From positions 286,398 through 335,482 of the forward strand of contig CP070693.1 in assembly GCA_020353235.1 (NCBI GenBank): 49,085 nt of DNA, written 5' to 3'. Origin of the DNA: Dehalococcoidia bacterium. Lineage in GTDB: Bacteria; Chloroflexota; Dehalococcoidia; Dehalococcoidales; JAUYDJ01. This document shows, one piece after another, positions 45,971 to 49,085 of this stretch (positions are counted from its first letter, which is position 1; each line of letters starts with the position of its first letter). The position numbers and the translations under genes were made by a program. The notes below the pieces were generated by a model. That model was given only the letters and a program-made list of their open reading frames with translations. It had not been told where the DNA came from and did not search any database.

Positions 45971-46630
45971 ATGGTACAAGAAGTAGAACGCTACCCAAAG
46001 GCAACCCGTGTCCTGCACTGGGTACACACCGGTGCTTTTGTCGCCCTGTTTGTCACCGGTCTTATACTGTTCGTGCCTCCGTTAGGCGCCCTGGCCGCGG
46101 ATAGCTGGAGCCGCATCATACACCGGGTGGCCGCGGTTCTCTTTATCGTGGCGCCTCTCATCTATTTCCCCCTCAACTGGAAGGCATCTGTAGGGGGGAT
46201 AAAGGATGCCTTTACCTGGGGTAAGGATGATATCGGCTGGCTAAAAGCAGCCCCCCGCTACTATTTCCTGAGTGACGAAGCAGCCATGCCCCCTCAGGAC
46301 CACATGAACACCGGCCAGAAGATGTGGTGGTTCATGGTGCTTGTCTTCGGGGTGGTCTTTGCCATAAGCGGGCTTATCATGTGGTTCGCCAAGACAACCG
46401 CCCCGCCGGAGCTACTGCAATGGATGGTGCTACTGCATGACGTCGCCTTTATCACCACCGGCTGTATGCTGTTTGTCCATATTTACCTCTCCGTGGCTCA
46501 CCCGATGATGCGCCCACTGCGCACCGGGGCCTGGAACTCCATGTATCGGGGCAAGGTATCAGTTGACTATGCCCGGTCACATCATGGAAAATGGTATGAG
46601 AAGATAGCTAGAGGGGCAGAGAAAAGCTAA
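45971..46630 (+). CDS. fdnI: Formate dehydrogenase gamma subunit, cytochrome b
   Basis: 219 residues, four helices. Haem-ligand histidines lie in RVLHWVHTGAF near 15-25, RIIHRVAAVLF near 50-60 and in MVLLHDVAFITTGCMLFVHIYLSV near 155-180. It anchors the enzyme and moves electrons to quinone or another partner. I start at the ATG at 45971 behind AAGGAGG; a longer reading from 45911 lies inside the Fe-S gene. Confidence 0.93.
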   Translation: MVQEVERYPKATRVLHWVHTGAFVALFVTGLILFVPPLGALAADSWSRIIHRVAAVLFIVAPLIYFPLNWKASVGGIKDAFTWGKDDIGWLKAAPRYYFLSDEAAMPPQDHMNTGQKMWWFMVLVFGVVFAISGLIMWFAKTTAPPELLQWMVLLHDVAFITTGCMLFVHIYLSVAHPMMRPLRTGAWNSMYRGKVSVDYARSHHGKWYEKIARGAEKS

Positions 46631-47491
46631 GTGTCCGCCGTAATAGACAAGATTATTAAAAAGCTAGAGGAAGAGAAAAACAAAAAAGGCAGTTTACCTC
46701 AACTTCTAGAGTTCTATCAGAACTTACTTCGTATTGAATCTAGGCTTGGGACGAAAATAGCCCCCCCCAAGCCTAGATTAACTAAAAAGACAATTAACTC
46801 CCGCCTAGAGCAGGGCTTACCACTACTCGGCTTTGACGACCTCGCCCTGGACCGGTCACTACTGCAAGAAATATATACTGAGGTCAGCAACCTCTTTGCC
46901 CGGTATCCCGCCCTCTTTAGTCCTGCCGTCGAGAAGCTGAAAGAGCTTGACCCCGGCGGTGTTATTGCCCCGGATACACTGAAAGCCTGGTTTGAGGGAG
47001 CTAGGTTACCCCTCGCCACCAGCCTCGATGAATCCGAAGAGGCTCTCCTTAATAACATCATCCTGGCCAGTATCAAGCCGTTCCTGACCAGCTACGCCCA
47101 AGTTCTGCTGCCGCTGGTGAACCAGGAGCGCTGGCGGCGTGGCTTCTGCCCAATTTGCGGCGGTAGCCCCGATTTCGCCTTTCTGGATGAAGAGCGCGGC
47201 GCCCGCTATCTGCTGTGCTCCCGCTGTGATACCGAGTGGCTCTTCCAGCGCCTAGAGTGCCCTTACTGCAGCACCCAGGACCAGAACGACCTGGCCTATT
47301 TCACCGACGAAACCGGCACCTACCGGCTCTACGTCTGCGAGCACTGCCAGCGTTATCTGAAAGCCATTGACCTGCGCCAGGCCCAGGCGGAGACGCTACT
47401 GCCCCTGGAGCGTATTTATACCCTCGACCTGGACAGACAGGCTCAGGAGCGCGGCTATCTTCCCCACGACAAGACCACCGAGATAAAATAG
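46631..47491 (+). CDS. fdhE: Formate dehydrogenase accessory protein FdhE
   Basis: 286 residues from a GTG that directly follows fdnI. The C-terminal half bears the rubredoxin-like zinc knuckles CPICGGSPDFAFL near 174, CSRCDTEW near 196, CPYCSTQD near 209 and CEHCQRY near 237. FdhE is needed for assembly of exported formate dehydrogenases. Last protein gene of the fdh operon, 60 bp before tRNA-Sec. Confidence 0.94.
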   Translation: MSAVIDKIIKKLEEEKNKKGSLPQLLEFYQNLLRIESRLGTKIAPPKPRLTKKTINSRLEQGLPLLGFDDLALDRSLLQEIYTEVSNLFARYPALFSPAVEKLKELDPGGVIAPDTLKAWFEGARLPLATSLDESEEALLNNIILASIKPFLTSYAQVLLPLVNQERWRRGFCPICGGSPDFAFLDEERGARYLLCSRCDTEWLFQRLECPYCSTQDQNDLAYFTDETGTYRLYVCEHCQRYLKAIDLRQAQAETLLPLERIYTLDLDRQAQERGYLPHDKTTEIK

Positions 47492-47550: not shown

Positions 47551-47646
47551 GGGGGCGGATGAGTCCCGGTGGGCTTCGCGGACTTCAAATCCGTTGGGGG
47601 GCACTAAAATGTCCCCGGTGGGTTCGACTCCCATACGCTCCCGCCA
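47551..47646 (+). tRNA. selC: tRNA-Sec (anticodon TCA)
   Basis: Anticodon stem GGACT/ATCC around loop CTTCAAA gives UCA. Acceptor GGGGGCG pairs with CGCTCCC, a 6-bp D stem GAGTCC/GGGCTT, a long variable arm GGGGGGCACTAAAATGTCCCC, the T arm GTGGG-TTCGACT-CCCAT, G discriminator and encoded CCA. The eighth acceptor pair is a G-A mismatch. It lies right after fdhE, with the Sec-using formate dehydrogenase. Confidence 0.93.
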
Positions 47647-47650
47647 GCTT

Positions 47651-47723
47651 GAAAGGCAGACGCAGCGGACTTAAAATCCGCCGGACTTAGTCCTTGTGGG
47701 TTCGAGTCCCACCCCCGGCACCA
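47651..47723 (+). tRNA. Degenerate tRNA-Leu (anticodon TAA) missing its 5' acceptor strand
   Basis: The D-arm end GGCAGACGC, anticodon stem GCGGA/TCCGC with loop CTTAAAA (anticodon TAA), variable arm GGACTTAGTCC, T arm GTGGG-TTCGAGT-CCCAC, acceptor CCCCGGC, A and CCA form a normal tRNA-Leu from the D loop onward. The expected 5' strand GCCGGGG is absent: the bases there are the 3' end of tRNA-Sec. A functional tRNA seems unlikely. Confidence 0.75.
47696..47723 (+). repeat. Direct repeat copy 1 (tRNA 3' end)
   Basis: 28 bp: T arm, acceptor strand and CCA of the degenerate tRNA-Leu. It matches the copy at 48484-48511 in 27 of 28 bases. The two copies bracket a 760-bp segment with one gene. Confidence 0.8.
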
Positions 47724-47840
47724 GATAATTCATTCCTTACCTCTACTCCCCCATTGACAAGTCTATTTAGTAAGCCTAAACTCAAGTCCTAACTTGTAAA
47801 ATAGTGTTAAAATAACTTACTGCTTTAGGAGGCAGAGAAA

Positions 47841-48458
47841 GTGACTAGCGAAAATGTTGAGCTAACTGGCGTGGAGAAGCCAGATAAATCCTCCCAAATG
47901 CCAACAAGACCAATCCCTCAAATCCTGAAAGAAGTAGAGGACAATATTAAAGAAGCTGTTGAGGCAGCGAGAAGAGCTGAAGAAGCTGCCAAGTCAGCCA
48001 AACAAGCTGCGGCAACAGCAGCAAAGTCATCTGAGGATGCGGCTAAGAGGTCTCAAGAGACACGTAAAGCCGGGGAAAAAGTTATCCAGAACGCTACCCA
48101 AGCAGCTGGCGAAGCAGCCGCCAAAGCCGAAGAGATGGCTAAGGAAGCTAACAAAGCAGTTCAGGATGCAGAAAGCAAAGCCCAGGATGCTGAAAAGGAA
48201 GCGAGAATAGCGGCTCAAGCGTATAAGAGGGCAATCGCCGCAGCTAGGGAAGCTGCTGAAACAGCGACTAAGACATCCGAGGAGGTAGCCATAAAGGCTA
48301 AGGAAGCTGTACAGGCAGCCACAACGGCAGCTGACCAAGCAACCAAGAGAGCCGAGGAAGCGGGTGCCGCAGGCAAAGAAGCTGTAGAATTGAAGGTTAT
48401 GCTTCAAAAATCCGGTGTAGCCACCAAAACTGACTCTAGCCGAGAGGGCGGCTCTTGA
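47841..48458 (+). CDS. Ala/Lys/Glu-rich long-helix protein, LEA-like or coiled-coil
   Basis: 205 residues with a strikingly biased composition (Ala, Lys, Glu) from residue ~30 to ~190 and no aromatic residues except one Tyr. The 7/11-residue spacing of Ala and charged residues suggests a long amphipathic helix, as in LEA-type or apolipoprotein-like proteins. No signal peptide or catalytic motif. Start GTG behind AGGAGG. No function can be assigned. The gene lies between two copies of a tRNA 3' end. Confidence 0.7.
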   Translation: MTSENVELTGVEKPDKSSQMPTRPIPQILKEVEDNIKEAVEAARRAEEAAKSAKQAAATAAKSSEDAAKRSQETRKAGEKVIQNATQAAGEAAAKAEEMAKEANKAVQDAESKAQDAEKEARIAAQAYKRAIAAAREAAETATKTSEEVAIKAKEAVQAATTAADQATKRAEEAGAAGKEAVELKVMLQKSGVATKTDSSREGGS

Positions 48459-48466
48459 GGTGCCAT

Positions 48467-48511
48467 CCCACGACCTTCGGGTCGTGGGTTCGAGTCCCGC
48501 CCCCGGCACCA
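48467..48511 (+). repeat. Direct repeat copy 2: tRNA 3'-end fragment with a fused 9-bp hairpin
   Basis: 48484-48511 is the tRNA T arm, CCCCGGC acceptor strand and CCA, matching the degenerate tRNA-Leu except one base. No anticodon arm precedes it. Instead CCCACGACC-TTCG-GGTCGTGGG (48467-48488) forms a perfect 9-bp hairpin that uses the T-stem bases. It looks like a tRNA remnant or attachment-site copy. Confidence 0.7.
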
Positions 48512-48541: not shown

Positions 48542-49051
48542 ATGACTCACAAAGAATGTATATATCAATGGACAGACAGTGATAAGCGACTCTACTTTAT
48601 ATCCTTAATTCCCTTCCTGATTGCTTTTGTAGGTTCGGCATATATATTAACAACAATCTCTATTTACCTAATGCTAATTTTCATAGGACTGTATATTATA
48701 GGCAACTTTTTTCAAGCTGGAGCATGTGTAGGGTGTCCCTATCAAGGCAAATTTTGCCCAGCTGTATTTGGGGTGTATCTAGGGAATGTCATGTCATCAA
48801 TAATCTATAAAAATCGAACTTTTGAACGTCGCTTCTTCAATATTAATGCAAATGCGGCCTCAATAACATGCATATTAGCCCTGCTATTTCCTATTTACTG
48901 GTTAACATTAAGTGGTTGGTATTATGTTGTTGGGTATTTGATCCTTGTGATAACCTATTGGTTTTACTTCTCATCGGTTTTCTGTCTGAAATGTAGTTAT
49001 AGTGATACTTGCCCCGGAGGGCGAACAGCCCACACGATATTTGGGAAATAG
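48542..49051 (+). CDS. Membrane protein with paired cysteine motifs, unknown function
   Basis: 169 residues with five likely helices (about 19-38, 39-58, 100-120, 124-145, and a short C-terminal one). Two soluble Cys sets stand out: CVGCPYQGKFCPA near 62-74 and CLKCSYSDTCPGG near 148-160, the kind of C-x2-C-x6-C-P pattern that could bind metal. I do not recognise the family. The codon use and AT content differ from the rest of the window, which may point to acquired DNA. Confidence 0.65.
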   Translation: MTHKECIYQWTDSDKRLYFISLIPFLIAFVGSAYILTTISIYLMLIFIGLYIIGNFFQAGACVGCPYQGKFCPAVFGVYLGNVMSSIIYKNRTFERRFFNINANAASITCILALLFPIYWLTLSGWYYVVGYLILVITYWFYFSSVFCLKCSYSDTCPGGRTAHTIFGK

Positions 49052-49085
49052 CTCTATTAATATAGTCAGCTTTTTATATGCTATA

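Follow-up and report, generated by a model that had tools for sequence, protein, structure and literature searches.

A single gene lying between two copies of a tRNA 3′ end raises the question of how it came to be there and whether anything could still move it. The case considered here is found near the end of a 49,085-bp stretch of DNA from a Dehalococcoidia bacterium (hereafter, the window; GenBank assembly GCA_020353235.1, contig CP070693.1, positions 286,398 to 335,482), behind selC, the gene for tRNA-Sec. The names selA, selB, xerC, xerD, thrS, plsY, and msrA, as well as those of genes in the intervals described below, were assigned by eye and are to be taken as presumptive.

tRNA-Leu(TAA) pieces behind selC

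ARAGORN called one tRNA in the region of the segment, an intact selC on the forward strand (47551-47646; 77.7 bits with the Rfam tRNA-Sec model), and the last gene before it is fdhE-like (46631-47491, forward strand; Pfam FdhE_central, E = 1.1e-10). A repeat search recovered a direct repeat of 28 nt (47696-47723 and 48484-48511) with 96% identity (27/28) and CCA at the end of both copies, as described in the first-pass annotation; by an arithmetic estimate, such a pair is expected about 4e-9 times per 2.6 kb of random sequence. The left copy forms the last 28 nt of a 5′-truncated tRNA-Leu(TAA) on the forward strand (nt 18-87; 47655-47723), which follows the CCA of selC after 8 bases and is identical to the intact tRNA-Leu(TAA) of the same genome at 67 of 69 aligned bases. 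Its Rfam scores were below threshold with both the tRNA-Sec model (23.7 bits; cut-off, 47) and RF00005 (21.8 bits; cut-off, 29). The right copy corresponds to nt 47-87 of tRNA-Leu(TAA), with 37 of 38 aligned bases identical and two gaps, and belongs to a 53-nt hairpin (48459-48511, forward strand), in which these nucleotides are preceded by an inverted partial copy of themselves. The resulting quasi-palindrome starts immediately 3′ of the stop codon of the bracketed gene, has a minimum free energy of -28 kcal/mol (z, -3.5), folds better than 199 of 200 shuffled sequences, and is a candidate fold-back copy, attachment site, or terminator without a T-run. Judged by these alignments, both repeats derive from tRNA-Leu(TAA), although the segment sits behind selC. 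The intact tRNA-Leu(TAA) gene (G000:C1:1042148-1042234, where G000 is the genome of the window) lies approximately 0.7 Mb away by scaffold coordinates and adjoins plsY, as it does in many relatives. The anticodon arms of tRNA-Leu(TAA) and selC have 15 of 17 bases in common, so that an element tuned to one of these genes could enter the other.

Other tRNA pieces were observed in the same genome. Approximately 190 bp separate tRNA-Leu(TAA) from plsY (L003:1529-1720), whereas 8-15 bp do so in L016, L026, L027, L028, and L031; by comparison, this stretch is a small insert at the target tRNA. Orphan SeC-like and Met-like 3′ halves, remote from any intact gene, were found at L114:7062-7130, L108:3800-3841, L111:1685-1734, and L106:1675-1716 and 1265-1303, and those at L111 and L106:1265-1303 have a CCCACGA..GGTCG stretch in common with the window hairpin. 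Further tRNA 3′ halves occur at 149, 476, and 1005 kb, and a SeC piece at 417 kb is flanked 5′ by a few Leu-like bases. A search for selC across the order gave SeC pieces at 417 and 641 kb of this scaffold, at scaffold distances of 83 and 307 kb from selC.

A putative selC-selB insert

A gap of 100 N closes the window, whose last 139 bp (48947-49085, forward strand) recur without a mismatch at the start of the contig bearing selB (G000:C1:641294 onward). This contig starts directly after another N run, and the scaffold places it 0.3 Mb from the window end (49085). From this overlap, we read the window and the selB contig as one locus that was probably split by the assembler, in which case the scaffold order looks wrong. 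The continuation consists, in order, of 28 bases of the plsY upstream region, 54 bases of tRNA-Leu (nt 22-75), nt 84-96 of SeC, selB facing selC, and selA. Counted across the contig overlap, the insert from selC to this selB-side scar is approximately 1.5 kb long, so we read the window segment as part of a putative 1.5-kb selC-selB insert within which the window stops.

The selB-side scar, Leu(22-75)::SeC(84-96), was located by alignment at L115:7424-7518 of the same genome. It is chimeric, and it switches from Leu to SeC in the T stem (nt 75/84) rather than in the anticodon loop. The plsY-upstream part (28 bp) and the tRNA-Leu part (54 bp) both match the Leu-plsY locus at 100% identity but stand in swapped order, as in a hypothetical circle cut from that locus. 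The first 24 of the 28 plsY-upstream bases have two exact copies in the genome and no further copy with 1-3 mismatches, and the idea of a dispersed promoter repeat was dropped because there were just these two copies. Since the scar junctions have a few bases in common at most, we consider k-mer misjoins unlikely. The perfect identity and swapped order, together with the quasi-palindrome at the right repeat, could also be produced without any mobile element, by replication template switching or microhomology repair at tRNA hairpins that left a patchwork. We regard this as unlikely, since it would leave unexplained the repeated integrases and integrase debris at selC-selB and at other tRNA ends of the order (see below).

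The segment had been described as holding a single long-helix gene, and one open reading frame (ORF) of 205 codons (47841-48458, forward strand), which we presume to be stranded cargo, was indeed found, accompanied otherwise by shorter overlapping or reverse-strand frames. The encoded coiled-coil protein corresponds in alignment to the N-terminal portion of a family found across the order (motif seen by eye, PxPLPxILDEMExNI), which was present in 35 of 61 genomes searched, the best matches being approximately 50% identical. Short forms of this family (approximately 200-290 aa) were seen in eight of nine loci read, and the ninth (L089) gave a wrong frame. A Pfam search with the 205-codon protein gave no match. 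A phage origin of the gene was dropped because no relative was found in phages or in viral contigs (17 pattern matches, none confirmed). The first-pass annotation had proposed a search for the coil gene beside tRNA genes elsewhere. The outcome did not speak for mobility: the gene adjoins tRNA-Leu(TAG) in G008 and G035, which looks like one conserved neighborhood (in G035, an apparent thrS follows the coil gene, and the G008 stretch ends in a similar-looking ORF start by eye), and the idea of a tRNA-linked mobile gene was abandoned. The second gene of the insert, with 169 codons (48542-49051, forward strand), encodes a membrane protein by eye. Among 156 genomes of the order, this protein was found in its own genome alone, and it had no Pfam or NCBIfam match. 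The upstream operon has a GC content of 0.55-0.61 in most windows (0.48 near 46400-46999), compared with 0.48-0.53 in the coil gene and 0.36-0.43 in the 169-codon gene.

Empty and occupied sites and the integrases of relatives

selB was found in 95 of 156 genomes, and 64 of these were counted as type A (53% identity or more). The interval between selC and selB was surveyed in 56 genomes, including that of the window, after omission of eight type A genomes whose match fell short of the selB C-terminus; in G031, where the selB match overlaps selC, the selB boundary was placed where selC ends. The two genes lie at most 43 bp apart in six of the 56 genomes (G005, G031, G057, G062, G096, and G151; selC of G031 is cut at nt 8 by the contig start). 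A full selC with an occupied interval of 0.6-8.6 kb was found in 26 genomes, a partial or broken selC in five (G000, G007, G058, G089, and G109), and no selC in the stretch examined in 19. The site is thus empty in some genomes and filled in others, which supports the earlier reading of the segment as an integration footprint at a tRNA gene, although the genomes compared include no close relatives with and without this exact insert, the one genome of the same family as that of the window (G001) being a fragmentary MAG with a selB match short of the C-terminus.

The intervals carry mixed cargo. Among the 115 ORFs listed, one was transposase-fragment-like (G098) and none was an integrase gene by eye. 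UspA-like genes (G104, G120, and G121) and a MWEWF-type membrane protein (G036, G105, G115, and others) recurred by eye, so part of the content may be inherited rather than newly inserted. Displaced selC pieces were present in G007 (two), G041, G094, G098, G109, G121, G124, and G126, and on a separate contig in G101. These are 3′ pieces with 5′ edges at nt 30-47, except for that of G109 (nt 56, at a contig start). Six pairs of a full selC and a piece within one stretch were 148, 527, 663, 717, 1365, and 2760 bp apart, and the order-wide selC search gave five genomes with both on one contig (G041, G094, G098, G124, and G126), in all cases within 2.8 kb. The relatives are mostly fragmented MAGs, the interval searches reached to approximately 9 kb, and longer elements are hidden by contig ends, so these small sizes may be biased. 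Of the 26 intervals that follow a full selC, only 5 contained a selC piece. A selC trace beside selB exceeded all 200 shuffles at only 2 of 50 loci (G007 and that of the window), which suggests that many gap fillings have lost their ends or came about otherwise.

The motif TAGATTCGGGA was considered as a separate site. It has three distinct occurrences in approximately 1.88 Mb of partly overlapping loci, all touching selC pieces, and it was not counted as such because in G007 it reads as the end of a helix-turn-helix (HTH) frame. The selC gene is split by approximately 340 bp in G058 (L230) and has an internal deletion of nt 34-74 in G089 (L238); from these sequences, both tRNA-Sec genes may be broken.

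The survey also bears on the possibility that a tRNA-Leu once stood beside selC or selB, in a tRNA cluster or an old sel-Leu neighborhood, and then decayed, leaving the coil gene as an ordinary neighbor. The left copy stands almost directly against selC, as tRNA genes in an operon do, and Trp-Leu-Gly-Cys-Leu(TAA)-type clusters occur in relatives. Furthermore, in G017 (L103:3016-7650) and G047 (L032), two genomes of one genus with another selB type, tRNA-Leu(TAA) lies directly behind selB on the same strand (in G017, in the order selC-selD-selA-selB-Leu, gene names by eye), and such an old neighborhood is a possible, differently oriented source of the Leu pieces. However, this tRNA-Leu points away from selB, whereas the scar of the window genome points towards it; ARAGORN called a tRNA-Leu directly behind selC in none of the listed selC loci; and tRNA-Leu(TAA) stands intact beside plsY. 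Decay alone would also not predict the in-register join of Leu 22-75 to SeC 84-96 at selB. We therefore consider this origin quite unlikely. Elsewhere, degenerate 3′ halves of tRNA-Trp or tRNA-Cys were noticed beside the Leu-Gly-Cys-Leu cluster (L022:458-500, L026:1239-1285, and L031:1594-1640), and single ORFs lie between the cluster members in several relatives.

Relatives carry a tyrosine integrase of approximately 290 aa, or debris of it, at selC, Leu(TAA), Lys, Pro, and Gln genes, and a displaced piece of the tRNA often lies no more than a few kilobases away. XerC and XerD, used as tblastn baits, yielded weak matches (best E = 0.002), and homologous remnants served instead. Reading on past the end of selC in the same frame gives related peptides in four genomes (G022, G041, G092, and G126), with the pattern FLxSRRQGLSPxTIxFYRxYL. 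When the 63-aa remnant from G041 was used as the query, 25 of 156 genomes gave matches; among these were a 316-aa open frame that begins within selC of G101 (E = 2.8e-12) and fragments beside tRNA-Leu(TAA) in G039 (E = 1e-8) and G005 (E = 3e-5). Plasmids and viral contigs gave none. Pfam recognized none of three short remnants, whereas all four intact relatives tested were PF00589 integrases (E = 9.7e-18 to 4.9e-28), and eight intact integrases align over their length. With a profile of these eight sequences, debris was detected at i-E < 0.01 in 6 of 31 occupied or broken intervals (G022, G092, G105, G126, G134, and G039), the weakest being that of G039 (i-E = 0.005); in G039, G105, and G134, it lies on the strand opposite selC. 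Where integrase debris accompanied other tRNA genes, the piece was approximately 3.2 kb (Lys, G036), 2.0 kb (Lys, G041), or 1.4 kb (Pro, G022) from the tRNA. Pieces with 72-76% identity were also seen at Gly in G096 (1.4 kb) and Thr in G005 (0.6 kb), two loci in which no debris of the 290-aa family was found; an ORF between tRNA-Gly and its piece in G096 is, by eye, a different kind of tyrosine recombinase, with a weak match to Xer (E = 0.002).

The integrase gene of this family appears to span its own attachment site. A motif pattern found the integrase in 17 of 18 loci tested, missing that at selC of G022. The integrase frame was open across the anticodon of the neighboring tRNA at 12 of the 18 loci, running through the whole tRNA at 11 and from nt 13 in G092. 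Of the remaining loci, those in G104, G026, and G029 had no tRNA matched by the script, that in G084 had a neighboring tRNA-Leu as its sole match, which the frame does not cross, and that in G005 was open only once past the tRNA. In a control comparison of the three open frames, that of the integrase was longest in 16 of 18 motif hits, the exceptions being a second hit at Lys in G041 and the hit in G005. An intact element of approximately 5.7 kb at tRNA-Gln in G104 (L272:2019-7932) offers the clearest view. It encodes a Prim-Pol replication protein (PF09250, E = 4e-16), its ends have an identical 37-base core, and an integrase ORF (68% identical to a PF00589 member) starts at one end and an HTH_3 ORF (E = 1.3e-6) at the other. 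When the two ends are joined, they give one uninterrupted ORF comprising HTH, a tRNA-encoded linker, and SAM-like and catalytic domains, and the G104 integrase gene thus appears to have been split by its own integration. The decayed selC element of G041 is likewise open across the junction, with a weak match on the HTH side (E = 0.04), and in G007, which shows the HTH side alone, an HTH (E = 1.7e-6) lies ahead of the piece, in the frame that encodes the integrase in other genomes. To judge from one clean case (G104) and several consistent ones, an integrase gene broken by its own integration appears to exist in a bacterium.

As remarked earlier, the segment lacks an integrase. The genome of the window, which is 95% complete, contains only two PF00589 genes, both Xer-like, and no PF00239 match; nothing has therefore been identified that could mobilize the segment now. 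We found no integrase debris with the integrase profile, and no HTH debris with HTH baits, in the window or in the scar loci of this genome. An alternative is a single-gene cassette, autonomous or satellite, in which the coil gene and a tRNA-like end would be moved in trans by a resident or visiting integrase, somewhat as in integrons, the well-folded 53-nt hairpin being the recombination site. The very small size of the bracketed units behind selC in relatives (148-2760 bp) would suit it, as would the different genes in five of the six units (the 148-bp unit has no gene of its own) and the selC piece of G094, which shows 100% identity to the full selC throughout and thus looks recent. Nevertheless, integrase debris in several intervals points to decayed integrase-bearing elements, the genome offers its two Xer-like genes and no integron-type integrase, and no like palindrome was noticed at those selC pieces that were inspected by eye. 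We consider a cassette unlikely. As for the two options of the first-pass annotation, a tiny satellite element or a remnant of a larger one, the intact integrases and debris at the same tRNA genes argue for a remnant and make a satellite the less favored option; "tiny" was partly right, since elements with both ends visible are themselves small.

A stranded gene compared with known elements

The explanation that we prefer, and hold to be somewhat more probable than not, is that small elements targeting tRNA genes integrated here in the past and left an insert of approximately 1.5 kb between selC and selB, to which the segment belongs, with the coil gene as stranded cargo. In this mechanism, a circular element would recombine with a tRNA gene, restoring an intact tRNA at one end and displacing a tRNA fragment to the other. 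As the tyrosine integrase gene would run across the attachment site inside the tRNA, as in relatives, integration would cut it in two, separating the HTH part from the SAM-like and catalytic part, and the element would be locked in place unless a whole integrase were supplied from elsewhere. The halves would then decay, and a cargo gene would be left between tRNA pieces. An element tuned to Leu(TAA) or selC could enter the other gene, leaving Leu ends behind selC and Leu::SeC chimeras; given the similar anticodon arms and the presence of the integrase family or its debris at both tRNAs in relatives, the Leu pieces and the chimera of the window genome are understandable as cross-targeting. We infer that the window insert came from the 290-aa integrase family and that the 205-codon gene was cargo of one of its elements. 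Against this stand the lack of integrase and HTH debris in the window and the edges of the Leu pieces, which begin at nt 18 and nt 47 rather than in the anticodon loop. With these edges and the changeover in the T stem, another integrase class or plain recombination could have made the pieces.

By itself, the window segment is a modest scar, and the element family is the more interesting result. For the order as a whole, we see an even chance that few-kilobase elements are widespread in this Dehalococcoidia order, with a suicidal-type HTH-SAM-catalytic integrase cut at a tRNA anticodon-loop site by every integration, and that recurrent one-way insertion and decay, including cross-targeting of tRNA-Leu(UAA) and tRNA-Sec, strand single genes, the window segment being one. 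A bacterial integrase gene split by its own integration would be a simple reason for lone genes between tRNA ends without a nearby integrase, and the gap between selC and selB would then keep a natural record of earlier insertions throughout an order represented largely by MAGs.

Among known systems, an integron gene cassette carries an attC site recombined by an integron integrase; the segment has a hairpin that might correspond to such a site, and the recombinases of the genome are Xer-like only. Parts of a report on Caldiarchaeum (PMC3293823) describe an intron-containing archaeal tRNA-Thr of which a 5′ fragment was scattered by a presumed integrating element, with a 1.8-kb sequence carrying a predicted recombinase. 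Scattered tRNA fragments are common to both, whereas the segment has 3′ ends of a bacterial tRNA-Leu and no integrase. Closer in lineage are the ssrA islands of Dehalococcoides, presented in passages of PMC3146451 as tandem inserts bounded by repeats of the 3′ end of the RNA gene, some without an integration module and suggested by the authors to be possibly cis-mobilizable. The window insert resembles them in its related host lineage, in RNA-gene 3′-end repeats at its bounds, and in having no integration module. The islands, however, target ssrA with the serine integrase DsiB, and the vcr islands are approximately 12 kb long; here the site is selC/tRNA-Leu, the tmRNA gene lies elsewhere (L107), and the genome has no PF00239 match.

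Mx8, mentioned below, is a bacterial phage. In passages of the Islander paper (PMC4383910), an intact tRNA and a displaced fragment mark the ends of an island, an anticodon-centered crossover defines one site class, a tyrosine integrase is expected, candidates shorter than 2 kb or without an integrase are rejected, island sizes peak at 13.6 and 39.9 kb, and the integrases of Mx8 and SSV are said to extend across attP. Our locus has the intact tRNA and a displaced fragment in the same orientation (selC at 47551-47646, and SeC nt 84-96 next to selB on the contig joined by overlap), the Leu pair being two fragments. It has no tyrosine integrase inside the insert, and its approximately 1.5 kb lies outside the 2-200 kb range; five of the six selC units of relatives would also fail the 2-kb filter. 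As Islander discards such inserts, tRNA scars of this kind are possibly undercounted.

The nearest parallel to the integrase itself is the archaeal suicidal (SSV-type) integrase, for which sections of a 2021 review (PMC8371274) describe an attP inside the integrase gene, partition of the gene upon integration, and excision that needs a whole integrase from elsewhere. The attP within the integrase gene and its split on integration are matched by G104 and consistent with G041, while the window itself has no integrase debris. Unlike SSV-type elements, those described here have bacterial hosts (by SelB, the closest named relatives are Dehalococcoidia/Chloroflexi MAGs), and in G104 it is an HTH domain that is cut away. 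A split bacterial integrase would thus extend to bacteria a mechanism that those sections of the review call exclusively archaeal.
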